Assembly: GCF_024609215.1 (NCBI RefSeq)
Contig: NZ_JANIPD030000001.1
Coordinates: forward strand, 124,001-188,000
Direction of reading: 5' to 3'
DNA: 64,000 bases
From: Curtanaerobium respiraculi
GTDB lineage: Bacteria > Actinomycetota > Coriobacteriia > Coriobacteriales > Eggerthellaceae
Every line of letters starts with the position of its first letter. Within the stretch, counting starts at the first letter, position 1. The position numbers and the translations under genes were made by a program. Of the stretch, positions 13,819 to 47,147 are shown in pieces. The notes below the pieces were generated by a model, which was given only the letters and a program-made list of their open reading frames with translations, was not told the origin of the DNA and did not search any database.

Positions 13819-13834
13819 GTTAGGTACATCTAAT
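13819..13834. promoter_or_regulatory. DtxR-type operator of the SUF operon
   Basis: GTTAGGTACATCTAAT matches the GTTAGg-N4-cCTAAC pattern found ahead of other iron genes in this window. It lies about 8 bases downstream of a minus-strand TATAAT (13847-13842), where bound repressor would cover the start of transcription. A weaker inverted repeat, TCCTA-N9-TAGGA, lies at 13737-13755. Confidence 0.65.
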
Positions 13835-13968: not shown

Positions 13969-14340
13969 ATGGCTCTTGTGCTTCATGAATCCGCTGAAAT
14001 GTACCTCGAGACGATCCACGTGCTGCATCTGAAGAACGGGCACGTGCGCGCCGTCGACATCGCCCAGCGCATGGGCTACTCGAAGCCGACCATCAGCGAG
14101 TGGATGGGCAAGTTGCGCGACGCGGGATACGTTACGGTCGAGAATTCGGGCAACATCGTGCTCACCGAGCAGGGTCAGGAGATCGCGGGTCATATCTACG
14201 AGCGGCACCTGCTTCTCACGAGCTTCTTCGAGAAGATCGGCGTCGACCCGGACATCGCCGAGGACGATGCCTGCCGCGTCGAGCACTATATCTCGGACAA
14301 AACCTTCGACGCGCTGAAGAAGCACCTGGAGGAAATGTAG
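13969..14340 (+). CDS. DtxR-family metal-dependent regulator (first copy)
   Basis: This is a 123-aa winged-helix protein. MYLETIHVLH begins the domain and DIAQRMGYSKPTISEWMGKLRDAGYV is the helix-turn-helix. The remainder is the metal-binding/dimerisation helices with HLLLTSFFEKIGVD, AEDDACRVEHYISD and the final KKHLEEM. It lacks an SH3 C-terminal domain, so it resembles MntR/short DtxR proteins. It probably senses Fe(II) or Mn(II) and represses genes through the GTTAG-type operators nearby. It is divergent from SUF and convergent with the importer/reductase operon. AAAGGA precedes the ATG. Most of its sequence is shared with the second copy at 46770-47147. Confidence 0.9.
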   Translation: MALVLHESAEMYLETIHVLHLKNGHVRAVDIAQRMGYSKPTISEWMGKLRDAGYVTVENSGNIVLTEQGQEIAGHIYERHLLLTSFFEKIGVDPDIAEDDACRVEHYISDKTFDALKKHLEEM

Positions 14341-14389: not shown

Positions 14390-15181
14390 TCATGCGTATG
14401 CGAGGCGATAGGGGAACACCGTATGCGCGATGTCGGAATCCAGATCGACGGATACGACGCGAGCGCGAACGCGGTAAAAACGTTCGATGTTCTCCTCGGT
14501 GATCACTTCCGACGTCGACCCGAACTCGCGCACGCCGCCTTCGCCGAGAAAGAGCGTGTCATCCGAGATCATAAGGGCATGGTCGGGGAAATGCGTGTTG
14601 ATCACGCATGTTGTCGTCCCTCGCTCCGCTATTCGCTGGATTGCGGACAGCACGCGCAATTGGTTGCACATGTCGAGGTTCGATTCCGGTTCGTCCAGAA
14701 TCAAAACCTCGGGCTCGCTCACAAGCGCTCGGGCGATCAAAACCATCTGCAGCTGGCCTCCGCTGATGCGGTTGCAACTGCAATGCGCTATGCTGCCCAA
14801 ATCCAACCAGTCGAGAGTTGCCTGCGCCCGTTCGTAATCCTCTTTGACGGGACTGGAGAACAGCCTCTTCTCCGCATTCAGGCCCATGACGACGGTATCG
14901 AGGACGCTGAACGCGAAGGGACTCTGTTTCGCCTGCGGCACGTAGCTGATATGGGTCCATACATCGCGATGCCTACAGGTCGAAAGCTCACGTCCGTTCA
15001 AGTAGGTTCCGCCGGTTCGCCATGGCAAGAACCCCATGATGCATTTGAGCAGCGTGGTCTTCCCCACCCCATTCGGACCGAGGATCGTGAGAACCTTGTT
15101 CTCGCGGACCGCCAAATCGAAATGGTCGTACAGCAGGCGGCCGCGGTACCCGAACGAGCCGTTTCGCACTTCAATTCTCAT
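14390..15181 (-). CDS. FecE-type ABC importer ATPase
   Basis: This is the ATPase of a metal-complex (siderophore/heme/cobalamin class) importer. The 263-aa protein has Walker A GPNGVGKTT, the Q-loop YVPQAKQSP, the signature RISGGQLQM, Walker B VLILDEPESNLD, and the H-loop NTHFPDHAL. The start at 15181 overlaps the permease stop as ATGA, which is why I reject the longer frame. It is the last gene of the six-gene operon that also encodes the nitrogenase-like proteins. It ends about 50 bases from the convergent DtxR gene. Confidence 0.9.
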   Translation of the reverse strand: MRIEVRNGSFGYRGRLLYDHFDLAVRENKVLTILGPNGVGKTTLLKCIMGFLPWRTGGTYLNGRELSTCRHRDVWTHISYVPQAKQSPFAFSVLDTVVMGLNAEKRLFSSPVKEDYERAQATLDWLDLGSIAHCSCNRISGGQLQMVLIARALVSEPEVLILDEPESNLDMCNQLRVLSAIQRIAERGTTTCVINTHFPDHALMISDDTLFLGEGGVREFGSTSEVITEENIERFYRVRARVVSVDLDSDIAHTVFPYRLAYA

Positions 15182-16266
15182 TCCGAAGAACCTCCTGTCT
15201 TCCGTAAGATCCAAGCGAAGAACGGCGCCCCGATGATGGCCGTCAGGATGGACAGCGGAATCTCGGCGCCGCTTGCGATGCGGGCGATATCATCGATGAT
15301 CAGCAAGTACGAGCTTCCGAGCAGCACTGAAGCAGGAACCAGCACCCGATGGTCGTTTCCGACCAGCATGCGCCCCACATGGGGGATCACCAGGCCTATC
15401 CAGCCGATCACCCCGCAGAGCGAAACCGTGACCGCCGTCATGAGCGTCGCCAGGACGATAACGACCAGGCGCAGACGCGACACGTCGACCCCGAGGGACG
15501 CCGCCTCCTCTTCATCCAGCGAGAGCAAGTTGAGCTTCCAACGCAACCCCCAAAGCAACGCGCAGCAAGGCAGCACCACCCCGGCAACGACGGCAACGTC
15601 GGAAAACGATGACGAGGCCATAGACCCCATCAGCCAGGTGGTGATTGCAGGCAGCTTGTCGTAGGGATCGCTCACGTATTTGATGAGGGACACCAATGCG
15701 GAAAACAGTGCCGATACGATGACCCCGGCGAGGACGAGCATGTAAATCTGGGTCCTGCGCTGGACGCGTCCGAGCATAATCACCAAAGCGACCGCTGCCA
15801 AGCCGAACCCGAGCGACAATCCCTCGATGGCGAGAGCGCTGCCGAAGAGGAGAATGCCGAGCGCGGCTCCAAAGCTCGCGCCCGACGAAACGCCCAGTAT
15901 ATCCGAGCTGACCAACGGATTGCCGAACACCGCTTGATAAGCGGCGCCTGCAACCGAAAGCGCCGCACCCACCAGCAAGCCCATCAGGATACGCGGCATC
16001 CTCACCGAAAGGACGACGTTTGCAGCGGTCGCGTCGGGCTGCGATGCCCCCGAGAGGGCATTGAGCAGAACGTTCACCACTTCTACGGGCGAGAGCCCGT
16101 ACCTCCCCAGGCAGAGCGAGACGACGAACGATACGGCAAGCGCGGCGACCATGCCGATCAATGCGAAACCGCGTTTCCATGCGGCAGACTCCATGCGGGC
16201 GGCCTTGGAATCGCCTTGGGCGCCGATCGGAGCGGCCCCCGATGCCTTCATCACGGCATTCCTCAT
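15178..16266 (-). CDS. FecCD-type ABC importer permease
   Basis: This 362-aa permease has about ten hydrophobic segments. It carries FecCD/BtuC family marks: VRMPRILMGLLVGAALSVAGAAYQ, NPLVSSDILGVSSGA, and the coupling region CGVIGWIGLVIPHVGRML. It should form a homodimer in the membrane for a periplasm-facing or lipoprotein binding component. The ATG overlaps the stop of the NifK-like gene by ATGA, and its own stop overlaps the ATPase gene the same way. Expression with the reductase genes is thus tightly coupled. Confidence 0.92.
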   Translation of the reverse strand: MRNAVMKASGAAPIGAQGDSKAARMESAAWKRGFALIGMVAALAVSFVVSLCLGRYGLSPVEVVNVLLNALSGASQPDATAANVVLSVRMPRILMGLLVGAALSVAGAAYQAVFGNPLVSSDILGVSSGASFGAALGILLFGSALAIEGLSLGFGLAAVALVIMLGRVQRRTQIYMLVLAGVIVSALFSALVSLIKYVSDPYDKLPAITTWLMGSMASSSFSDVAVVAGVVLPCCALLWGLRWKLNLLSLDEEEAASLGVDVSRLRLVVIVLATLMTAVTVSLCGVIGWIGLVIPHVGRMLVGNDHRVLVPASVLLGSSYLLIIDDIARIASGAEIPLSILTAIIGAPFFAWILRKTGGSSE

Positions 16267-17480
16267 GCCGTCTGCCTTCCAGGTCGGGAGCCATGCAGCG
16301 CGCGAAGGAACCCCCGCCCGTAGGGGCAGGCATCGTCCTCCCAGGAAAGCCGGCTCGAAACCGCAAGATGGGGCATTGGGATGAAGCGGGTATCCGGATG
16401 GGCGAATTCCTCAAGCAATCCGTCGGCGACCACCATATCGTACGCTCCCGAGGACACGAGCTCCAAGGCGCGGAACTCGCTGATGTGCCCAGGATCTCCG
16501 GGAAGAGCGTCAGCGGCATCCCAGCCGAAAAACGTCGCGATATCGACCCGCGCGCACCCCTCGTCGGACATCAGGGACTGGCGCATGCCCTCCGCCATCA
16601 CCTGCTCGCCTATCACGAGCGCTTTTCCTCCACCGTCGGGAGCGGTTTCGAGCGATATGCGAGATGCCTCGGTTTCCCCCTCGATGCGCATTTCCATGAG
16701 GTTGGAGAACGCTTGCACCGGCATCTCGCCTGAAAGCGACGCCCAAGCATACGGTATCCCGAACCTGCGCTCCATCCATCGGGCCAACTTCAGGCCGCTC
16801 GAGGACACCACGACATTACAGCTCGCGCGAAGCGCCTGAGCCAGCTCATCGAGATCAGAACCCATGCACCAGCAAGTCTCCACATCCCAGCCGGCGCTTT
16901 CCAGCAATGACGATGCCGCCTCGATATTCGATTGGCCTTGCAGGTCGAGGGGCGTCGCGCCCAGGAGATTCACGGAACGCGCCGCCCGCGCGGCATCGGC
17001 CTCGAAGCCGCATCCGGCGAACACCACGTCGCGTGCAAGCTGCAGGAGGGCCATCTCCACACCCACATCGTAATAGCGCGTCCCCGTGGTATCGACAGCG
17101 AGAACGGGCACGCCGAGCTTACGTTCCAACTCGCGTCCGATTGCCTGCAAATCGGTTCCCAGAACCATCGGATTCGGAGACCCCACCAGCGCGATGAACC
17201 TTCCGCCGACCGCCTCTTGCGTGCGTTCGACAGCATGGACGAGCAAATCGTCTTTGCCGAACAACGCTTGCATATCATCGAGCGCAGACGTGAAAATGCG
17301 CGCATGGCTGTCGTATGCGCGCGGCTCGTCGTATGCCACGAAATTACCCGTGCATCCCGCCGGATCGTGGAATATCAGCGTCCCGTCCAGTTCGAAGAGA
17401 GCCGAGCATGCGCCTGAGTAGTCTCCCGCAAACGTGGGGAGCACCGCATGGAAACGATCCGACTTCTCGATATCCCGCAT
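16263..17480 (-). CDS. Nitrogenase-like component, beta (NifK-like) subunit
   Basis: This 405-aa protein belongs to the nitrogenase component 1 superfamily. Near the N-terminus are GACSALFE (Cys25) and DPAGCTGNF (Cys43), which align with two P-cluster ligands of NifK. The third expected cysteine is replaced: the site reads LVGSPNPMVLGTDL, with serine 101. The remaining sequence has the repeated Rossmann-like domains of the family. I chose ATG 17480, preceded by GGGAGGGGATAGG. ATG 17507 overlaps the upstream stop (ATGA) and is a possible alternative. It should pair with the neighbouring NifD-like subunit to form the catalytic component. Nothing identifies the substrate. Confidence 0.82.
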   Translation of the reverse strand: MRDIEKSDRFHAVLPTFAGDYSGACSALFELDGTLIFHDPAGCTGNFVAYDEPRAYDSHARIFTSALDDMQALFGKDDLLVHAVERTQEAVGGRFIALVGSPNPMVLGTDLQAIGRELERKLGVPVLAVDTTGTRYYDVGVEMALLQLARDVVFAGCGFEADAARAARSVNLLGATPLDLQGQSNIEAASSLLESAGWDVETCWCMGSDLDELAQALRASCNVVVSSSGLKLARWMERRFGIPYAWASLSGEMPVQAFSNLMEMRIEGETEASRISLETAPDGGGKALVIGEQVMAEGMRQSLMSDEGCARVDIATFFGWDAADALPGDPGHISEFRALELVSSGAYDMVVADGLLEEFAHPDTRFIPMPHLAVSSRLSWEDDACPYGRGFLRALHGSRPGRQTA

Positions 17481-17503
17481 CGTCCTATCCCCTCCCGGAG
17501 CGG

Positions 17504-18916
17504 TCATACGACCAGGCCCTTTGAATACATGAGCTCTTTGGCGTCGCGTTTCGATGAAAGCGCGTCGTGGACGGACCGCAGGAGGTATTCCAATGCCTGG
17601 AAACCGAACGGCTGCCTGTCGACGCCCCATTCGACAACGGCCGCCTCTGGGGCAAGGCGGGCCACGTCGAAGCCGATGGCGACATCGGTGGCACGGGGCG
17701 CGCCGGCGACGAGCGACATGCCCGGATGGGTGCCTGGGTAAACGGGTATAGCGGGATCAACCCGTCCGAGGTAGTCGATGAACGGCGCATCGGACTCCGA
17801 AAGCTCCTCGGCTATCAAGAACGAGATATTCGCCCCCGCGCGGGCGAGGACGGCGGCGATTTCGAATGTCGAGCCGTTTAAGCTGGACCCAACGGCGATG
17901 TCCAAGCCGGCCATCCACGGAGCCGCATCATCAAGCGCCTGGCGGGCGCGCAGTTCGTATTCCTTGCAGTCGATTTCGGCACCCAGCGATTCTCCGAGCC
18001 CCTCGTACATGCGGGCGACATGGTCGGGGTCGATGGGCATTCCCGTGAGAAACCATGGGATGCCGAGCCCCCTCCTCATGTCCTCGCACGCCAAACGCCC
18101 GAACGGCTTTAGAAGGATATTGAATGAAGCCCCTCTCATCAGGCAGAATTCGTCAAATGTTTTGCATGCGGTCATCTGCCGCACCGTATGGTAGCCGGCG
18201 CTCGCAAGCAGGGCGTGCAATTCGCTTCCGCCCATGACGGGGGCAAACCCCCCGATGATGTTCGCCTCGCCCCGCTTCGCGGGGATCTTCCCGGCCTTCT
18301 GCAAGAACCGGTAGATGCTCCGTTGCAGGTTGACCGGCGGGGGCGTGCTGGACGTCATCGAGATCGGATCCATGTGCCCGTCGACGAAGGGGATGCCGTA
18401 TCGTCGTTCCAGCTTGGCGCACACCGACCGATAGTCCGACCCGAGCAAATCGTCCACGCATGTGCTGAACAGATAGAAGGCCCGGGGGGCGGGTTTGCGC
18501 ATCTCCATGATGCGGGCCACAGCCTCTTCGACATGGTCCATATGCGCGCCCATGACCAGATCCTCTTCGGTCGCATCGAGATAGTACATCCTGTCCCTGT
18601 AGCCATGCATATAGGCGGCCATCGACCCATGCCTCCCGCATCCGAGCGGGGATGTGAACAGCATGACCGTCTCGGGGACCTGCATGGCGCCGCGGGCTAT
18701 GCCCCACCCTCCGGCGCAGGGCGCCACGAAACGGGCGAACCCTTTCGGGGTGAGACAGTTTTCGCCAATGGGGAGGCCGACGACCTGCGTCCCATCAGCC
18801 GATGCATCGGCCCCGCCGGAAACAGCGCCCATCGACCGAAGCCTGCCGATGGGGATCGCCACGTCCTCCGCCTCATCTGCGGTATCGACCCGCGTCAAAA
18901 CGCCGGACGCCGTCAC
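17504..18916 (-). CDS. Nitrogenase-like component, alpha (NifD-like) subunit
   Basis: This is a 470-aa component 1 protein. Three cysteines align with the P-cluster ligands of NifD: ENCLTPKGF (Cys54), SPLGCGRHGS (Cys93) and FSTCVDDLLGSD (Cys153). The motif after Cys93 parallels the VGCG motif of NifD. Residues that hold the FeMo cofactor in true NifD could not be recognised. The start is uncertain. I use a GTG at 18916, one base past the nifH-like stop, and internal starts near 18860 are possible. The gene lies between the H-like and K-like genes with minimal gaps. Its length and cysteines fit a reductase that takes electrons from the H-like protein. Confidence 0.8.
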   Translation of the reverse strand: MTASGVLTRVDTADEAEDVAIPIGRLRSMGAVSGGADASADGTQVVGLPIGENCLTPKGFARFVAPCAGGWGIARGAMQVPETVMLFTSPLGCGRHGSMAAYMHGYRDRMYYLDATEEDLVMGAHMDHVEEAVARIMEMRKPAPRAFYLFSTCVDDLLGSDYRSVCAKLERRYGIPFVDGHMDPISMTSSTPPPVNLQRSIYRFLQKAGKIPAKRGEANIIGGFAPVMGGSELHALLASAGYHTVRQMTACKTFDEFCLMRGASFNILLKPFGRLACEDMRRGLGIPWFLTGMPIDPDHVARMYEGLGESLGAEIDCKEYELRARQALDDAAPWMAGLDIAVGSSLNGSTFEIAAVLARAGANISFLIAEELSESDAPFIDYLGRVDPAIPVYPGTHPGMSLVAGAPRATDVAIGFDVARLAPEAAVVEWGVDRQPFGFQALEYLLRSVHDALSSKRDAKELMYSKGLVV

Positions 18917-18917
18917 A

Positions 18918-19694
18918 TCACGCCCGCACCGCATCGGCGGCCTCCACTTCATCGACCAGCTGGCGCGCAATGCCCTTGAAGATATTCGATATCTCGAGAC
19001 CCGAATCAAGCTGCTCGACGGTCATGCCGGCATCCTCCGCTTGCTGGATATGCGCATCGCGGGGAACGATGCCGATGATGGGCGCTTCGATTCTTTTTGA
19101 AAATTCCTCCACGATCTTTATCTCGTCCGGAACGTTGCGACAATTCACAATCATCCCGCGGAGCTTGGCGTATCCTCGTGATGCGAAATTATCGAGGGCG
19201 CGCTTGATATTGGCGGCGGCGTACATCGCCATCTTCTCACCCGAGGTGACGATGATGACCTCATCGGCGTAACCAGCACGGATCGGCGTCGCGAAACCCC
19301 CGCACACAACGTCCCCCAGCACATCGAAGAACACGAAATCCGGATCGTACGTCCCGAACGCGTCGAACTCTTCCAGCGTATCGAACGTTTTCACGATGCC
19401 GCGACCGGCGCATCCGCTTCCCGGGGTCGGGCCGCCCGCCTCGACGCAGGCAATGCCCTTGTATCCCTCCGAGACAATCGAATCGAGGCTGGGGCACACC
19501 CCGTTGTTTTCCAGAAGGACATCCATCACGGGCATGATGCTTCGCCCACCGAGCAGGTTGAACGTCGAATCCGCCTTGGGATCGCATCCGATCTGCATCA
19601 CCCGATACCCCTCATCGGCCAAGCAGGCGGAAAGGGTGGAAGTCACCGTCGATTTGCCGATGCCGCCCTTTCCGTAGATTGCGATTTTCTTCAT
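18918..19694 (-). CDS. NifH-like ATP-dependent reductase
   Basis: This 258-aa Fe protein homologue has Walker A GKGGIGKST (residues 8-16). Both cysteines that bind the bridging 4Fe-4S cluster of a NifH dimer are present: GSGCAGRGI (Cys95) and GDVVCGGF (Cys131). DPKADST and EAGGPTPG are also conserved. It is about 30 residues shorter than true NifH at the C-terminus, as in NflH/CfbC/BchL-like relatives. It should pass electrons to the NifD/NifK-like pair with ATP hydrolysis. It lies 12 bases after the binding-protein gene. No nifE, nifN or nifB is present, so nitrogen fixation is unlikely. Confidence 0.92.
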   Translation of the reverse strand: MKKIAIYGKGGIGKSTVTSTLSACLADEGYRVMQIGCDPKADSTFNLLGGRSIMPVMDVLLENNGVCPSLDSIVSEGYKGIACVEAGGPTPGSGCAGRGIVKTFDTLEEFDAFGTYDPDFVFFDVLGDVVCGGFATPIRAGYADEVIIVTSGEKMAMYAAANIKRALDNFASRGYAKLRGMIVNCRNVPDEIKIVEEFSKRIEAPIIGIVPRDAHIQQAEDAGMTVEQLDSGLEISNIFKGIARQLVDEVEAADAVRA

Positions 19695-19706
19695 TGCTCC
19701 GCTTCT

Positions 19707-20855
19707 TTAGTCCTGAGTATGATCGAGCATGCGTGAGAGCTCATCGTCGGAAAGGCCGTATCCGTAGACATCGCTGTAGAATGTGCTTACCTCCGCTTTC
19801 ATGTCCATATCCTCGAACAAATCGGCATGCTGCACTTTCGCCAGCCACTTGATCATGAGCGGGGTCTCCACGCAAGGCGGATCCCAACGGTAACCGCCTA
19901 TCGGGATTTTGTACACGTTGTTATTTTGGACGGCTTTGATCTGCGACCAGTCTTGCCCGTCCAACTTGTTCTGAAGCACGTCCGACGCTTTGATCCCCGT
20001 GAAATTCCCCACGAACACATAATCGGGATTCCAGGAGATGATCTGCTCCATATCGACTTTCACGCTCTGCTGCTGCATATCGGCAGCAGGATCGTTCGCG
20101 CCGCTCTTGTCCATCCAATAGGGGGTGAAGCCGGAACCGTTCACCGTCAGATTTTCGGAAAGATGGATGGAAGTCGGACGTTGCTCGGGACCCAGACCGC
20201 TTGTACGCGAAGACACCTCGTCAACCTGCTTGAAGAAATAGTCGACGATGAAATCGGCACGGTCGTCCTTGTCGAACAGCCGGCCCAGCAGGCGGATCCA
20301 CGTCTCCAAATCGTCTACCGTGCCATATTTCAGGGCAACCACCTTAAGACCGGCATCTTCCATGGCTTTGATGCTGTCCGGCTGGCTCGTCCATTGGAAC
20401 ACGACATCCGGCTTGAGCGAGAGGAGCTGCTCGACGTTGACGGTGAAATCACGTGCGCACCAATCCGTATTCACGCCTGCCAATGTCGGATACATGGACT
20501 TCAACACGCTGTTCTCGTATGCGGGCATCGAAGCGGGGTTCGCGCCGATAAGCGTATCGGTATCCCCCATGATGGCGTAGTAGATGGAGGGGAACGGGAT
20601 GATGGTTGTGGCGACGCGAGTCGGAATCGTGTCGAACGCTATGGTCTTCCCCAACTGGTCGGTGATTTCGACCGATTTTTTCGCCTCGGATGACGACGCA
20701 TTGGAACCGGAGTCGCTTTTCGACCCCCCGCTGCAACCGGAAAGCATGGCGGCACCCGTTGCAAGCGCGATTCCCGCACCGGCCACGAACGCCCTCCTGC
20801 CAAGCAGTCGTCCGGCCTGCATAGAGGACCCTGCCTTTTTGACATTGTATTGCAT
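19707..20855 (-). CDS. Substrate-binding lipoprotein of metal-complex importer
   Basis: This 382-aa protein is a class III (FhuD/BtuF-like) binding protein. The signal has a twin arginine (LLGRRAFVAGAG, residues 18-29) and a lipobox LSGC (Cys41), so it is probably a Tat-exported lipoprotein. The mature part opens with DQLGKTIAFDTIPTRVATTI and contains LLSLKPDVVFQW, typical of the TroA/FecB fold. A tryptophan-rich YRWDPPCVETPL near the end may contact the ligand. It is the first gene of the importer/nitrogenase-like operon. AAAGG precedes the ATG. Two DtxR-type palindromes lie just upstream. Confidence 0.9.
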   Translation of the reverse strand: MQYNVKKAGSSMQAGRLLGRRAFVAGAGIALATGAAMLSGCSGGSKSDSGSNASSSEAKKSVEITDQLGKTIAFDTIPTRVATTIIPFPSIYYAIMGDTDTLIGANPASMPAYENSVLKSMYPTLAGVNTDWCARDFTVNVEQLLSLKPDVVFQWTSQPDSIKAMEDAGLKVVALKYGTVDDLETWIRLLGRLFDKDDRADFIVDYFFKQVDEVSSRTSGLGPEQRPTSIHLSENLTVNGSGFTPYWMDKSGANDPAADMQQQSVKVDMEQIISWNPDYVFVGNFTGIKASDVLQNKLDGQDWSQIKAVQNNNVYKIPIGGYRWDPPCVETPLMIKWLAKVQHADLFEDMDMKAEVSTFYSDVYGYGLSDDELSRMLDHTQD

Positions 20856-20867
20856 GTGTAACCTTTC

Positions 20868-20939
20868 GTTAGGTATCCCTTACCCATTCGAAAGTATAGC
20901 AATTTCCTTGGGAATTGGTGATTAGGTTATCCTAATCAC
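20868..20939 (-). promoter_or_regulatory. Promoter and two DtxR-type operators of importer/reductase operon
   Basis: The minus-strand -10 TATACT (20898-20893) lies between operator GTTAGGTATCCCTTAC (20868-20883) and the stronger palindrome GTGATTAGG-N4-CCTAATCAC (20918-20939), which has perfect 9-bp arms. No clear -35 is seen. The arrangement fits iron-dependent repression. Confidence 0.7.
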
Positions 20940-21268: not shown

Positions 21269-21574
21269 ATGCCGACGAAGACATTCTCGGGAAGAGCCGA
21301 TGCAGAGAAGCTGAAGTTGGCGAATGCTGCAACCAAGCGTGACGCTCAAATGACCTTCGGACAGTTTTGCAGTACCGCTCTGGTTGATTACATCTGCGAG
21401 CACAACGCGCTTCCCGATCTCCAGCCAACCCGCAAGAATCCTTCCGCCTTTGCTGTATTGCGAAATCTTGCAGGCAAACATGGGTCAAGCGCTCTTTCAG
21501 GTCGGGGAGACCCCGCTATCGGATCGATGTCGGACGAGCAAATTGAAGAGTTGATTGCGAGCCGCTATGCATAA
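21269..21574 (+). CDS. Antitoxin, RelB/DinJ-like ribbon-helix-helix
   Basis: This is a 101-aa acidic-to-neutral protein. The N-terminal half (TFSGRADAEKLKLANAATKR, then MTFGQFCSTALVDYI) looks like a ribbon-helix-helix DNA-binding domain. The C-terminal part is probably the flexible toxin-neutralising tail, ending EQIEELIASRYA. It overlaps the downstream PIN toxin gene by 8 bases, which is standard for antitoxin-first modules. GGGAG precedes the ATG. It probably represses the operon through the GTTTACAT repeats. Similarity to the second antitoxin in this window is only in layout. Confidence 0.65.
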   Translation: MPTKTFSGRADAEKLKLANAATKRDAQMTFGQFCSTALVDYICEHNALPDLQPTRKNPSAFAVLRNLAGKHGSSALSGRGDPAIGSMSDEQIEELIASRYA

Positions 21575-22013
21575 GCGCGTACTCGTCGACACCAATATCA
21601 TTCTCGATATGGCAATGCAGAACCGTCCGGATCACATCGCGGCGCTGCAGCTGCTCGACGAGGTTGAGGCCGGAGATACTCAGGCGATAATGGCTGCGAC
21701 ATCCTGCAAGGACGTCTATTATGTGCTGTCGAAATACATGGGCGAAATTGATGCTCGCGCCTATATCCTTGCGCTGATGGAAGTGTTCGACATCTGCGCG
21801 ATCGACAGGGCGATCTGCCTGCAATCGGCGCTTTCGAACGAACCTGACTTCGAGGACGGCCTCATTCGAGCGTGTGCAGAAAACGACAGAGTCTCCTACA
21901 TCATTTCCCGCGACGAGAAAGCGTTCAGAAAATCACCTACTAAACGTCTGAGTGCGGCAGGCTATATCGAGCTTCTGGATTCCTGGAACGAAATCGGTGA
22001 CAGGCAACCGTAG
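21567..22013 (+). CDS. PIN-domain toxin (VapC-like)
   Basis: This 148-aa protein begins MHKRVLVDTNIILDMAMQN, the first acidic strand of a PIN ribonuclease. Later acidic positions occur in NEPDFEDGLIRACAEND and the final strand YIISRDEKAF. PIN toxins cleave tRNA or rRNA when the antitoxin is degraded. The ATG lies within the last codons of the antitoxin gene. A second PIN toxin of similar type is at 31229-31717. Confidence 0.8.
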   Translation: MHKRVLVDTNIILDMAMQNRPDHIAALQLLDEVEAGDTQAIMAATSCKDVYYVLSKYMGEIDARAYILALMEVFDICAIDRAICLQSALSNEPDFEDGLIRACAENDRVSYIISRDEKAFRKSPTKRLSAAGYIELLDSWNEIGDRQP

Positions 22014-40890: not shown

Positions 40891-40991
40891 GCCAACCCCT
40901 CCCCGCGGAATCTCTCCAGTTGTCCCCTATTGTACTCTCTCATGGAAATTGCATGATAGGATTTGACCCAGCATCCAATTGAACGCAAACT

Positions 40992-41007
40992 GTTAGGAAT
41001 CCCTAAC
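40992..41007. promoter_or_regulatory. DtxR-type operator before DUF3793 gene
   Basis: GTTAGGAATCCCTAAC is a perfect copy of the consensus palindrome, 25-40 bases ahead of the ATG at 41032. Confidence 0.75.
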
Positions 41008-41031
41008 TTCTGTCAACGAAAGGATGTGGCC

Positions 41032-41739
41032 ATGGCGGATCGTCGAATACCCATCGAAGAGATCACGCGCGCCGTCGAAGCCGATGCCTTGCTCGAACGG
41101 GACATCGTGCGCTACGCCGCCCCAACCCTTGCCGGAATGAAGCCGGCATGCATGTTCAGCTGCCCTTACACTGCCGACCCCGACGATGGGGTGCGGGAGT
41201 TCGTGCCTGAAGTCCTGCTCCTCGGCGAGTTCAAGCAAGCATTGGACGGTCTAGGCGCGCGTCTCTCGCCTTACGGGGTGGACATCGAGGTGATTGCATG
41301 GCGCGACACGAGCGCCCTGCTGTACGTCTGCCGCAGAGAACTGGCGGCGCAAGCCGTTTCGACGGGAGCCGCCGCATCCCGATTGGCGGCATTGGGATAC
41401 CAGATCGACGACTTCGAAGCCTGCATGGATTTCCTGCGCGGCCGCATAAAGGAGTTCGACAACCTGGATCGTCAATGCGATTTCTGGGATTTCCCGCACG
41501 AGATCGGGCATTTCCTCGGCTACCCCGCCATCGATGTCGCGGCTTACACGCGCAATCGGGGCTGGAACTTCACGGCGGACGGGCATTGGCGCGTGTACGG
41601 ATGCCAGCATCGCGCGCGAGGCGTGCTGAGGCATTTTGCCAAACTGGATGAGTGCGAGCGCAGCTATTGGCGGCTCTACACGGAAGGCGCGCGCGTGGAG
41701 CATCTCGCCGAATTAGGCAACCTGGCGTGTAGCGGATAG
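41032..41739 (+). CDS. DUF3793 family protein
   Basis: This is a 235-aa soluble protein. The C-terminal half carries the family pattern FWDFPHEIGHFLGYPAIDV and GHWRVYGCQHRA, with conserved His and Cys residues. Earlier, LLYVCRRELA fits the family strand. Members occur near flavodoxins and Feo genes in anaerobes, and their role is unknown. AAAGGATG precedes the ATG. The perfect iron operator upstream suggests iron-dependent expression. Confidence 0.85.
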   Translation: MADRRIPIEEITRAVEADALLERDIVRYAAPTLAGMKPACMFSCPYTADPDDGVREFVPEVLLLGEFKQALDGLGARLSPYGVDIEVIAWRDTSALLYVCRRELAAQAVSTGAAASRLAALGYQIDDFEACMDFLRGRIKEFDNLDRQCDFWDFPHEIGHFLGYPAIDVAAYTRNRGWNFTADGHWRVYGCQHRARGVLRHFAKLDECERSYWRLYTEGARVEHLAELGNLACSG

Positions 41740-42905: not shown

Positions 42906-45900
42906 TTAGCTCGTACGATCGGGAAGAACGTAACGGACGTCGGCAAACCCCACGGTGCTCGCCCGGTGGCTGACGATGACGACGGTCTTCCCGGCGCGCC
43001 CCTGGTCGAGGGCATCGATGACCGCTGCCTCGTTCAGGGCATCGAGGTTGCTGGTGGGCTCGTCGAGCAGGATGATGGGGGCATCCTGCAGGAAGATGCG
43101 TGCCAAGCCGACGCGCTGGCGCTCGCCGCCGCTCATCGTGTCGCCCAGTTCGCCAACGGGCGTCTCGAATCCGCGCGGCAAGCGGTCGACGAAATCCATG
43201 ATGCGGGCCTTCTCGCAGGCACGCCGCAGCTGGTCGGGCGTGGCGTCGGGCCGGGCGAGCAATATGTTGTCGCCCAACGTCCCCGAGAACAGATGCGTGT
43301 CCTGCGTCATGTAGCCCAGGCTCTCGCGCAGACGGCGCGTGGGAATGCCCCGGACGTCCGCTCCGTTGTACGTGATCGAGCCGGATCCGACATCCCAGAA
43401 GCGCATAAGGAGCTTCAGCAGCGTCGACTTGCCCGACCCGCTTGCGCCCTCGAGCGCCAGCACCCTTCCCCGCTCGAGGGCGAAGTCGATATCCCGCAGC
43501 ACCTCTTCTCCCTCATAGGAGAAGGATACATGGCTCACCCGCACCGGGGCGCCCGCCTCCTCATCGCCTCCATCATCGGGCACATCGGGCGTTTCGGGCT
43601 CCTCGTCGAGCAGATCGAGCACGCGATCGCCGGAGGCGAGCGTCCCAGCGAGGCCGCCGCCAAGCCGCATGACGGCTATGACCGGGCCGAACGACGACAT
43701 GAACGCCGCAACGCCTCCCAAAGCCTCGGAGAACACGATGGACCCTTGCCCCATGAGAGCGATCGCCGCGACGATCATCGCGATGTCGAATCCGATGATG
43801 ACCACGTCCGCGCACGCGGCGACCACGCCGTCGCGCCGTTTGTAGGCGAGTTCGACCGTGCCGAGCTCCTCTGTGCGACGGCCCAGATTGAGCCCGCGTC
43901 GCCGTGCCGCTCCGAACTGGATGAGCTCGCGCAGGCCGCGAAGGCTCTCCAAGACGTAGGCGTTCAGCCTGCCCGTTCCATCGCGCAGCGTGCGCCCGGC
44001 CGTCCCCGAGACACGGTTCCCCGCCATCGGGAGGGCGACACCGACCGTCAGGTACGCCGCCAGCGCGATGAGGGCCATCCAGGGGCTCGTCGCGGCAAGC
44101 CAGCAGACCATCGCGAGGCTCACGATGAACGCGATGGCGACCGGGGAGATCGTGTGCGCGTAGAACACCTCCAGCAATTCGATGTCCGCGGTCGCAAGAG
44201 ACACCAGATCGCCCTTGCTCCGCCCCTCGAGCTTGGCGGGGGCCAAGCGCCGCAGCGCCGCGTACACCTTGTCGCGAATGACGGCGAGGATGCTGAACGC
44301 GATGAAATGGTTGGCCATCTGCTCGCCGTAGCGCAGAGGACCCCGCACCACCCCGAAGAACGCGACGGCAAGGCACAGGGCGAACAACGACATCCCCCCG
44401 AACCGGGCGACGGTGCGGCAGAGCGCGTACGCCCCCGCCGTCATCAGCGCGATGGCGGCAAGATGGCCCAAGGCGCCCAACGTGATGGCGAGCGACATAT
44501 GCGGCTTCAGTCCCCCGAGCAGGGAGATGAGCCTGCCCATGATGCGCAAGGGGGAGCGATGGCGCGGCGGCTCCGACGCAGAGCGGCCCTTCGGGCGCGC
44601 GGTGCGGAATGCGGGCTCGGCAGGCATGCCCCCGTCCGGCTCCTCCTGCGAGAAGTCGCGGGCAAGTTTCTCCAGGTGCTGCTGGCTTTGCCACAGATGC
44701 GCGTACACGCCCCCGCCCAGCAGCAGTTCCTCATGCGTCCCGCTCTCTGCGACGACGCCATCCGCCAAGGCGTATATGCGGTTGGCGTGCTCAACCGCGC
44801 TCAGGCGGTGGCTGATGACGATGACCGTCTTGTCCTCGGCGAGCTGGGCGATGACGCGTCCGATGGCCTCCTCGCTTTCCGCGTCGATATTGCTCGTCGC
44901 CTCGTCGAACAGGTAGATGGGCGAATCGTGCAGCAGGGCGCGTGCGAGCACCAAACGCTGGCGCTGCCCTCCGCTGAAATTGGAGGACGCCTCCGCCACC
45001 GGGGTATCCAGGCCGGATGCGGAGCGCAGGTAGTCCGCGATGCGGCATTGCGCGAGAACCTCCCACATACGGTCATCGTCGGCTTCGGGATTCCCCAGGG
45101 CAAGGTTCTCGCGCACCGTGCCGGCGAACAGCATGCCGTTGGTCGGAACCGATGTGATGGATCGCGCGAGAAGCTCTGGCGAGAACTCGTGCAAATCGAC
45201 GCCCCCCAGCGTCACCGATCCGGCGTATCCGGCAAGCCTACCGCTCAGGATGCCCGCAAGCGTGCTCTTTCCGCAACCGCTCTCGCCGACGATGCCGCAA
45301 AACCCTCCCTGCGGGAACACGGCGTCCACTCCCCGCAGGATCTGGCGGCTCCTATCATAGCTGTAGCTCACCCCGTCGCAGGCCATCGTGATATCCTCCG
45401 GCAGCTCGTTGCGCCCTCCGGCAGCCGGTTCGGGCATCGCGAGCAGCTCGTGCATGCGGTCGGCGGCCGCGACGCCGTTCATGGCGCTGTGAAACAGGCT
45501 GCCCAATGTGCGCACGGGCAGGAAGAACTCCTGCGCGAGGAACACGATCGTGAACGCCCCGGCGAACCAGAGCGCCCCGGCCGAGAGCTGCGTGGCAGCG
45601 ACGATGATGCCCGCCGCCGCGCCCACGAACACGACGAGGTCCATCGCGACGATACTGCGCAGCTGAACGGAAAGCAGGCCCATGGTGGCGCTGCGGAATT
45701 TCTGCGCCTCATCGTTCATGCGGGCGTGGCGATCCTCGTCCGCTTGGAAGATCTTGAGCGTGGTAAGGCCCTCGATGTCCTCGAGGAACGAGGTGCCGAG
45801 GTCGCCGTAGCTTCCCCAATACACGTCCGCAGCGTTGTGGGCCGCCTTGCGCACACCCATGATCAGGCCGGGAACCAACGGCACGCCGAGCGCGAGCACG

Positions 45901-46370
45901 AACGCCGCCGGCAGGTTGATGGGCGCGAGCGCCACGAACAGCGTGAGGGGGGCAATCAGCGCGAACACGAGCTGCGGCAGATATGCCCCGAAATACACCT
46001 CCAATTGCTGCGCTCCGTCGATCGCCAACTGCACCGCCTCGGCCGTGCCCACCTTCTCCTGGTAGGAGGGCCCCAGGCGCAGCAGCTTGTCGAACACCTT
46101 CTGGCGCACCTGCCTTTTCGCGGCGAGGGCGGCCTTGTCCCCCGCTCCCTGGGCGAGGACGCCCGAGAGCGCACGCACGCACGCCGCCGCCCCGACGAGC
46201 GCGAGCGCGGCCCAGGGCACCGTGCGCACGCCGACGAGCAGGTCCTGGAACACCCAGCCCAGACGCATCATGATGAAGATGGTGGCGAGCAGGCCGACCC
46301 ATTTCCACAGGACGCTCAACGCGATGTACTTCTTCGCCTCGGGAGCCAATGCGAGAAGTTTCTTGTCCAT
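42906..46370 (-). CDS. Fused CydDC-like ABC exporter
   Basis: This 1154-aa protein joins two complete exporter halves. The first half has Walker A GESGCGKST, signature NFSGGQRQR and Walker B IYLFDEATS. The second half has GASGSGKST, TMSGGERQR and IILLDEPTS. Each follows six membrane helices. The first half resembles CydD and the second CydC, which together export cysteine/glutathione or bind heme for cytochrome bd assembly. No cydAB is nearby. The start at 46370 follows AGAGGCG. A DtxR-type operator lies about 90 bases upstream, and a divergent DtxR gene follows. Iron control could point to export of a heme precursor, thiol or siderophore-like molecule. Confidence 0.85.
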   Translation of the reverse strand: MDKKLLALAPEAKKYIALSVLWKWVGLLATIFIMMRLGWVFQDLLVGVRTVPWAALALVGAAACVRALSGVLAQGAGDKAALAAKRQVRQKVFDKLLRLGPSYQEKVGTAEAVQLAIDGAQQLEVYFGAYLPQLVFALIAPLTLFVALAPINLPAAFVLALGVPLVPGLIMGVRKAAHNAADVYWGSYGDLGTSFLEDIEGLTTLKIFQADEDRHARMNDEAQKFRSATMGLLSVQLRSIVAMDLVVFVGAAAGIIVAATQLSAGALWFAGAFTIVFLAQEFFLPVRTLGSLFHSAMNGVAAADRMHELLAMPEPAAGGRNELPEDITMACDGVSYSYDRSRQILRGVDAVFPQGGFCGIVGESGCGKSTLAGILSGRLAGYAGSVTLGGVDLHEFSPELLARSITSVPTNGMLFAGTVRENLALGNPEADDDRMWEVLAQCRIADYLRSASGLDTPVAEASSNFSGGQRQRLVLARALLHDSPIYLFDEATSNIDAESEEAIGRVIAQLAEDKTVIVISHRLSAVEHANRIYALADGVVAESGTHEELLLGGGVYAHLWQSQQHLEKLARDFSQEEPDGGMPAEPAFRTARPKGRSASEPPRHRSPLRIMGRLISLLGGLKPHMSLAITLGALGHLAAIALMTAGAYALCRTVARFGGMSLFALCLAVAFFGVVRGPLRYGEQMANHFIAFSILAVIRDKVYAALRRLAPAKLEGRSKGDLVSLATADIELLEVFYAHTISPVAIAFIVSLAMVCWLAATSPWMALIALAAYLTVGVALPMAGNRVSGTAGRTLRDGTGRLNAYVLESLRGLRELIQFGAARRRGLNLGRRTEELGTVELAYKRRDGVVAACADVVIIGFDIAMIVAAIALMGQGSIVFSEALGGVAAFMSSFGPVIAVMRLGGGLAGTLASGDRVLDLLDEEPETPDVPDDGGDEEAGAPVRVSHVSFSYEGEEVLRDIDFALERGRVLALEGASGSGKSTLLKLLMRFWDVGSGSITYNGADVRGIPTRRLRESLGYMTQDTHLFSGTLGDNILLARPDATPDQLRRACEKARIMDFVDRLPRGFETPVGELGDTMSGGERQRVGLARIFLQDAPIILLDEPTSNLDALNEAAVIDALDQGRAGKTVVIVSHRASTVGFADVRYVLPDRTS

Positions 46371-46769
46371 GTTCGCCTCTTCGTTCGACGCAGCCAAGAC
46401 GGCGCAGAGGCTCGCATCATTGCAATGGCGAAATCACTCAGGTGGATGCGCTCAAGCTGTTGTTAGCAAATCCTAACCATTGTAGAGCCCGAATGGAGCA
46501 CACGTCAACCTGCCAGAAACGCTCCGCCAATTCCCCAAGTATCACGTGCGTCCCCGCCAGCAGCCAGCCCGGCCAGCGAACCCCGCATGCTCGGCTCGCC
46601 CGACGGCGTCCGCAAAACCCGTCGTCGCGGAAGGGCGTGTGTACGAAAGCGCCCTCCTTCCCCTCGGCAATGCGGCCCAAGGTTCCGTTGCCATTTCGAC
46701 ATGAGAAAATGGGCCCTGTTCAAGTACAATGTTAGGCATGCATAACCCATTCGTTCGAAGGCGGTTGCC
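46371..46769. promoter_or_regulatory. Divergent control region with two DtxR-type operators
   Basis: GTTAGCAAATCCTAAC (46462-46477) lies ahead of the exporter. GTTAGGCATGCATAAC (46731-46746) lies 24 bases ahead of the DtxR gene, which suggests autoregulation. The 250 bases between them hold no gene that I recognise. Confidence 0.65.
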
Positions 46770-47147
46770 ATGCCACTGGTCCTACACGAATCTGCCGAGA
46801 TGTACCTTGAGACGATCCATGTGCTCAGCAAGGAGAAGGAGCATGTGCGAGGGGTGGACATCGCCCAAAGGATGGGCTACTCCAAGCCGACGATCAGCGA
46901 ATGGATGGGCAAGCTCGGCGACGCCGGCTACGTCCACATCGACGAGAAGGGAAACATCTCCCTCACCGAGATGGGGAATGACGTCGCCACCCGCACGTAC
47001 GAGCGGCACGAGGCGTTGACCGAGTTCTTCACGAAGATAGGCGTGCAGCCGGAAAGGGCCGAAAGCGATGCCTGCCGCGTGGAGCACTACATCTCGGACG
47101 AGACGTTCGATGCGCTGAAGAGGCACCTCACACGCATCGAGGCGTAG
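46770..47147 (+). CDS. DtxR-family metal-dependent regulator (second copy)
   Basis: This 125-aa paralogue of the protein at 13969-14340 shares LHESAEMYLETIHVL and DIAQRMGYSKPTISEWMGKL. It has the same metal-binding helices (HEALTEFFTKIGVQ, AESDACRVEHYISDE). The recognition helices are identical, so both regulators may read the same operators. They differ mainly in the wing and C-terminal residues. GAAGGCGG precedes the ATG. An operator of the shared type lies in its promoter, which the first copy lacks nearby. Metal preference (Fe versus Mn) may separate the two. Confidence 0.9.
   Translation: MPLVLHESAEMYLETIHVLSKEKEHVRGVDIAQRMGYSKPTISEWMGKLGDAGYVHIDEKGNISLTEMGNDVATRTYERHEALTEFFTKIGVQPERAESDACRVEHYISDETFDALKRHLTRIEA

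Follow-up and report, generated by a model that had tools for sequence, protein, structure and literature searches.

Known nitrogenase-like relatives act on tetrapyrroles, according to passages of one paper (PMC11423573), and Mar and Isr are described in passages of the same paper and another (PMC11423573, PMC12552129) as nitrogenase-like enzymes of sulphur nutrition, the isethionate genes including importers. Relatives of the nitrogenase D and K subunits, of unknown function, in which D has two cysteines and K a single one, were reported by Dos Santos et al. in 2012. Passages of that paper also describe ATP-binding cassette (ABC) transporters beside some nitrogenase-like genes, suggest a coupling of metal transport to cofactor assembly, and record hydrogenase-maturation neighbours in Firmicutes (PMC3464626). 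In another organism, Desulfitobacterium hafniense, three extra nifHDK-type operons all have transporter genes; passages of the report suggest functions beyond nitrogen fixation, which it does not resolve, one operon being induced by oxygen and one by nitrate (PMC3306737). The kind of system is thus already known, since nitrogenase-like genes beside ABC transporters have been in print since 2012. Here we describe such a system in Curtanaerobium respiraculi (Eggerthellaceae), on a stretch of 64,000 nucleotides (contig NZ_JANIPD030000001.1, positions 124,001 to 188,000; the window, below). An uninterrupted run of six minus-strand genes at 14390-20855 joins a nitrogenase-like H-D-K reductase to a metal-chelate importer. 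The feature is real and conserved, and what is new is a split of the family into a branch with iron-type control (DtxR-like sites) and a branch with control by the molybdenum or tungsten cofactor.

The initial annotation proposed a six-gene operon behind two DtxR-type operators, and both parts of that claim hold. The genes are separated by gaps of 12 and 1 bases and then by three 4-base ATGA overlaps. The elements of the locus are as follows.

20922-20935: DtxR-type operator TTAGGTTATCCTAA, a perfect palindrome, upstream of the lipoprotein gene
20869-20882: second DtxR-type operator TTAGGTATCCCTTA, one mismatch to a palindrome, upstream of the lipoprotein gene
19707-20855, minus strand: substrate-binding lipoprotein of the 'YRW' type (Peripla_BP_2, Pfam)
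18918-19694, minus strand: H protein, NifH-like ATP-dependent [4Fe-4S] reductase component (PF00142, 284 bits; Cys95 and Cys131)
17504-18916, minus strand: D protein, nitrogenase component 1-type subunit with a GTG start (Oxidored_nitro)
16263-17507, minus strand: K protein, nitrogenase component 1-type subunit (Oxidored_nitro; own clade in the tree)
15178-16266, minus strand: FecCD-family permease (FecCD, 288 bits)
14390-15181, minus strand: ABC importer ATPase (ABC_tran; first ATG at 15181, frame open to 15214)
13969-14340, plus strand: DtxR/MntR-family regulator gene, a candidate regulator, downstream of the operon and convergent with it

The Pfam domains of the operon genes (Peripla_BP_2, Fer4_NifH, Oxidored_nitro in both D and K, FecCD and ABC_tran) all exceed their cut-offs. 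The FecCD permease, ABC ATPase and Peripla_BP_2 lipoprotein together constitute a FecBCD-type (type II) metal-chelate importer. The molybdate importer MolBC-A (HI1470-72) is likewise of type II, as passages of PMC4031551 describe it, but has no reductase and binds oxyanions. The view that this gene set has no characterised example fits our literature search, in which the open-licence papers listed included no functional study of this H-D-K plus importer family; the linkage itself, however, was printed in 2012 in the two papers cited above (passages of PMC3464626 and PMC3306737).

The linkage recurs in related genomes. When 296 Coriobacteriia genomes were searched with D, 37 matched at E 1e-5. 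The 31 loci examined comprise the window, the second cluster of the same genome and a single locus per genome from 29 others, seven matched genomes being omitted. Of the 31, 13 combine the H-D-K genes with the full set of three importer genes, another 13 have H-D-K sisters, often in two sets, but lack a FecCD permease, one has only D and K, and four have an H protein that falls with NifH. A named scan yielded at least 75 distinct loci; its sole pattern was the peptide around D Cys153, so it is biased to this family and is not a census. Among the matches listed, both H and K occur in 68 of 75 loci. A FecCD permease is found no more than 8 kb from D in 63 of these 75, and in 35 of the 37 that have at least 7 kb on both sides, the two exceptions (L071 and L074) both being Chloroflexi. 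The hosts among these matches include Clostridia, spirochaetes, Chloroflexi, Eisenbacteria, Accumulibacter, Sulfuritalea, Rhodoplanes and the archaeon Methanospirillum. The survey that the initial annotation called for therefore rules out absence of the linkage from related genomes. At least five gene orders were found (SHDKPA, SPAHDK, SPADKH, HDKSPA and PASHDK, where S is the lipoprotein, P the permease and A the ATPase). Because the order varies, the linkage reflects more than the inheritance of one block, and a genuine coupling of reductase and importer is well supported.

The C. respiraculi genome itself (2.5 Mb; assembly completeness 99.5%) encodes nine FecCD permeases above cut-off, and each of its two H-D-K sets adjoins one. 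In the second cluster (L035, on C3 at approximately 29.9-36.2 kb) the genes run lipoprotein-permease-ATPase-H-D-K. The D and K proteins of this cluster fall into the MoeA-type branch described below, yet no MoeA-like gene adjoins it.

Other nitrogenase-like sets were seen near importer-like genes. In Methanospirillum (L198, 4164-10001) a set from a different nitrogenase-like clade, in which H and D parts share a single frame and K follows, adjoins genes that look importer-like by eye and a CobN/Mg-chelatase gene. In a Desulfosporosinus metagenome-assembled genome (MAG) a second, more Nif-like H-K-D set (L199, 13648-19899) lies by a methyltransferase gene and genes that by eye are importer-like, and because of this set coupling to importers may not be confined to a single nitrogenase-like clade. 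HmdB/HydE-like radical SAM genes lie near H-D-K plus importer clusters in L118 (1547-2605) and L120 (13478-14509), with HmdB scores of 119 and 149 bits, below the cut-off.

Operator-type sites with at most one mismatch to TTAGGNNNNCCTAA number 13 in the window, against a mean of 0.82 and a maximum of 3 in 50 block shuffles. The nearest relative (L036) has two perfect DtxR-type sites upstream of the same lipoprotein gene, and DtxR-like sites precede the operon in nine of 78 loci, where 12 sites were found in 30.5 kb and 0.56 were expected from the remainder of the same loci. These nine are the window, L036, three Clostridia MAGs (L068-L070), one Spirochaetaceae locus (L116) and three of Treponema/Spirochaetaceae (L092, L111, L113), so that the sites span Coriobacteriia, Clostridia and spirochaetes. 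In the C. respiraculi genome a perfect site also precedes feoB, and two sites with one mismatch precede a DUF3793-flavodoxin gene pair. The operon thus has the palindromic operators, and the genome the DtxR-family regulator, that mark a DtxR/IdeR iron regulon. Iron regulation of the operon, as predicted in the initial annotation, is well supported when judged from sites rather than expression, a judgement that does not distinguish iron from manganese.

Further sites of this kind occur elsewhere. A palindrome lies at or just before the start of each of two DUF3793 genes (window 40963-41739; L206 2497-3162); because of these palindromes, and because the L206 copy adjoins a flavodoxin gene, DUF3793 is suggested to be part of the iron-starvation response. 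The regulator gene at 13969-14340 has a paralogue at 46770-47147 (plus strand), which diverges from a minus-strand gene for a 1163-residue protein with two ABC-exporter halves, the pair occupying 42906-47147, with DtxR-like sites at 46463 and 46732 between them. A set of suf-like genes, read by eye, lies beyond the 13969-14340 regulator gene and is divergent from it, with a DtxR-like site between them (13820-13833). At 21269-22013 a PIN-domain gene follows a small gene, and the two resemble a toxin-antitoxin pair.

The two regimes emerged when the 78 loci were sorted by the motif of their binding protein. The YRW type (YRWxPP or a close variant) is the only one in 37, other types alone occur in 23, three are mixed and 15 have no typed protein; the 23 non-YRW loci carry HVWGNR or FWWDRP motifs, or, in eight, unclassified proteins only. 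DtxR-like sites were found in 7/37 YRW-only loci, in 0/23 non-YRW loci and in two loci without a typed protein. A MoeA-like gene is present in 18 of the 23 non-YRW loci and in none of the 37 YRW-only loci. The Rfam family RF01055, a riboswitch type described as sensing the molybdenum or tungsten cofactor (passages of PMC2408646), was detected in eight of 48 sources searched (L118, L123, L124 with two copies, L126, L127, L130, L134 and L135). It ends 44 (L130) and 48 (L134) bases ahead of the first gene and 128 bases ahead of the MoeA-like gene in L123, overlaps the called permease start in L126, and lies about 1 kb ahead of H in L127 and in one L124 copy. The copies in L118 and L135 are each followed by a divergent set, a methyltransferase-type gene and then permease, ATPase and lipoprotein. 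By type the riboswitch is found in 7/23 non-YRW and 0/20 YRW-only sources (Fisher p 0.01), L139 being typed by its MoeA-like gene. One locus (L066, with a D 48% identical to that of the window) unites YRW and FWWDRP binding proteins, a MoeA-like gene and a cysteine desulfurase. DUF364, found in some clusters here, has been proposed to act in heavy-metal chelation (passages of PMC2954201). Two kinds of metal control on two branches would otherwise be hard to explain, which argues that the system handles metals.

The most likely role is thus the reductive handling of an imported metal complex, the metal being iron in the window and, in the sister type, molybdenum or tungsten. A link to metals is well supported; the reaction is inferred. 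For the window, we consider the chances about even that the operon serves iron acquisition and includes an ATP-driven reductase of its own, which acts on the imported complex. When iron is low, a DtxR-type repressor would leave the operators, and the lipoprotein with the permease and ATPase would import iron in a small, tight complex such as a catecholate-type chelate. H would then bind ATP in the cytosol and dock on a putative (DK)2 core. Low-potential electrons could then pass through a cluster at the D-K interface, probably [4Fe-4S], to the complex held in the cavity equivalent to the iron-molybdenum cofactor (FeMo-co) site of nitrogenase. Reduction, presumably of the metal centre rather than the ligand, would loosen the metal and make it usable. 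In the sister type the imported metal would be molybdenum or tungsten. The import of an iron chelate is supported by the TonB receptor gene found upstream in all four proteobacterial YRW-type loci whose contig extends far enough, and by the affinities of the binding protein discussed below. A wider proposal, which we consider less likely than not, is that a widespread nitrogenase-like family of ATP-driven reductases with very low potential strips iron, or molybdenum or tungsten in the sister branch, from chelates closed to ordinary reductases, under DtxR or riboswitch control, respectively.

Several results weigh against parts of this evidence. Matches to TTAGGNNANCCTAA with up to two mismatches are not enriched genome-wide over the reversed control (77/73 versus 179/187), nor are those with up to three mismatches in the window (52 versus a mean of 46.7). 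RF01055 was found in none of the MoeA-bearing Coriobacteriia loci searched (L052-L056, L058, L059, L066, L139). The counts by type are not independent, as the type of the binding protein switches three times on the D tree, and the independent pairs are too few for a test of the association. Finally, the two TonB receptors scored with NCBIfam gave 235 (L086) and 211 bits (L082) with a hemin/hemoglobin model and 153 and 171 bits with a siderophore model, which bears on tetrapyrrole use (below).

The subunits themselves depart from nitrogenase. H has both cluster cysteines (Cys95 and Cys131), as first described, and scores 311 bits with the NCBIfam nifH model, under the cut-off of 394. Three P-cluster-type cysteines had been assigned to D; Cys93 and Cys153 are invariant (78/78 alignment rows), but Cys67, which stands 26 residues ahead of Cys93 at the NifD spacing, is matched by cysteine in at most 4/78. 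Two had been assigned to K, of which Cys52 stands (71/71) as the sole K cysteine aligned with a nitrogenase ligand, but Cys34 is offset from the first NifK cysteine, where the window K has glycine, and occurs in 42/71. The serine said to replace the third K cysteine adjoins that position, but the position itself aligns with proline (71/71). Family-wide there are thus only three cluster cysteines, two in D and one in K, rather than the six of Mo, V or Fe nitrogenase. The columns of the FeMo-co ligands NifD Cys275 and His442 hold lysine and aspartate in the window D and most commonly arginine and aspartate in the family, and FeMo-co-type ligands are therefore absent. This is the two-plus-one pattern of Dos Santos Group IV: the equivalents of D Cys88 and Cys154 are each present in 78/78 and that of K Cys95 in 71/71. 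The sequences of that study, in the passages concerned, are alike also in lacking FeMo-co ligands and in having ABC-transporter or hydrogenase-maturation neighbours (PMC3464626); what we add to those passages is the iron or molybdenum/tungsten control, the binding-protein types, the TonB receptor and the MoeA link.

The superfamily tree suggested in the initial annotation placed D (Shimodaira-Hasegawa-like approximate likelihood ratio test 99) and K (100) in clades of their own, apart from Nif, NifEN, Bch and CfbD, and so in none of the known functional clades represented; the tree was a quick one whose reference branches are long, and it contained no Mar sequence. DPOR (BchLNB), COR (BchXYZ) and CfbCD are alike in joining an H component to a component 1-type core without FeMo-co, and DPOR shares the fold; the curated models for these systems score far under their cut-offs, however, and no genes for their substrates are in the operon. 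Mar and Isr are nitrogenase-like HDK enzymes, and Mar has the same fold. Unlike the proteins here, Mar has six P-cluster cysteines and the Cys270/His429 ligands of its cluster (passages of PMC12552129); those P-cluster and [Fe8S9C] cluster ligands are absent from D and K as judged at the equivalent NifD/NifK columns, the comparison with Mar itself being by Protein Data Bank profile.

Among solved structures, the D profile is best with NifE (87 bits), ahead of Mar (63), nitrogenase alpha chains (at most 61) and BchB (26), and the fold is shared with NifEN. This raises the possibility of a cofactor-assembly scaffold, proposed in one sentence by Dos Santos et al. (passages of PMC3464626), in which a NifEN-like H-DK would build or load a metal cofactor from the imported metal. 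The MoeA-like gene, joined in L066 by the cysteine desulfurase, and the molybdenum/tungsten-cofactor riboswitches would fit such a role. So would the hydrogenase-maturation genes that adjoin sister genes. The Coriobacteriia sisters without FecCD (L037-L047, L050, L060) belong to a related bacterial family whose members have one or two H-D-K sets, and the single neighbour tested among them is HypF, which makes a link to hydrogenase maturation possible. However, the curated nifE model scores D at only 45 bits and K at 60, against a cut-off of 505, D lacks an equivalent of Cys275, the cysteine with which NifD and NifE bind their cofactor, no gene for a client enzyme is present in the window operon, and the control sites of the operon are of the iron type rather than a cofactor riboswitch. 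The reported lack of nifB, nifE and nifN was also confirmed: the genome search gave no nifB match, and PF00148 genes are limited to D and K of the two clusters. We regard a scaffold as rather unlikely for these reasons.

The binding lipoprotein favours a metal complex over a tetrapyrrole. Its nearest solved structures are 4ovk, 4hn9, MolA (3psa), Helicobacter CeuE (Ni-His) and YiuA. In the score comparison MolA, which binds molybdate, the Ni-His binder and the Fe-catecholate binder YiuA all come ahead of the heme and B12 binders. We take MolA to be its nearest relative with an assigned ligand, by profile and by fold. The heme-binding lipoprotein (IsdE) model gives 37 bits against a cut-off of 299. 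The initial annotation had offered a metal complex or a tetrapyrrole as the substrate of the importer. The first half is strengthened. The second is weakened by the tie of the sister type to the molybdenum/tungsten cofactor, by the scores just given for the lipoprotein and by the absence of any tetrapyrrole gene from the operon. Reduction of the ring of imported heme or another tetrapyrrole by H-DK, as in BchLNB and CfbCD, freeing or reusing the metal, is accordingly less likely, and indeed improbable, even with iron-type control sites compatible with heme use, the hemin/hemoglobin scores of both receptors, and known relatives that act on tetrapyrroles (passages of PMC11423573).

The reductase might instead target an organic ligand, or an unrelated carbon, sulphur or nitrogen nutrient entering as a metal chelate, metal supply being a side effect. 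The sulphur nutrition served by Mar and Isr, with importers among the isethionate genes (passages of PMC11423573 and PMC12552129), offers a precedent. In addition, the Chloroflexi loci L071 and L074 and five spirochaete loci (L091, L096, L105, L111, L113) have a nearby permease of one cluster (BPD_transp_1 in the one member tested, with an N-terminal domain of the peptide/nickel type), L105 having FecCD as well. The families that recur in at least five loci, as far as they could be read, are MoeA-like proteins, a CRP-type regulator, DUF364 and the permease just mentioned with a binding protein; no catabolic gene stood out among them, and DtxR-like sites and molybdenum/tungsten riboswitches indicate metal supply. 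We consider this explanation highly improbable.

If reductive handling of an imported metal complex is the right reading, nitrogenase chemistry would have a role in metal supply. It would also bear on the joint origin of metal import and nitrogenase cofactors, and on the use of iron by anaerobes of the Eggerthellaceae. The split between an iron branch and a molybdenum/tungsten branch gives concrete substrates and conditions with which this can be tested.

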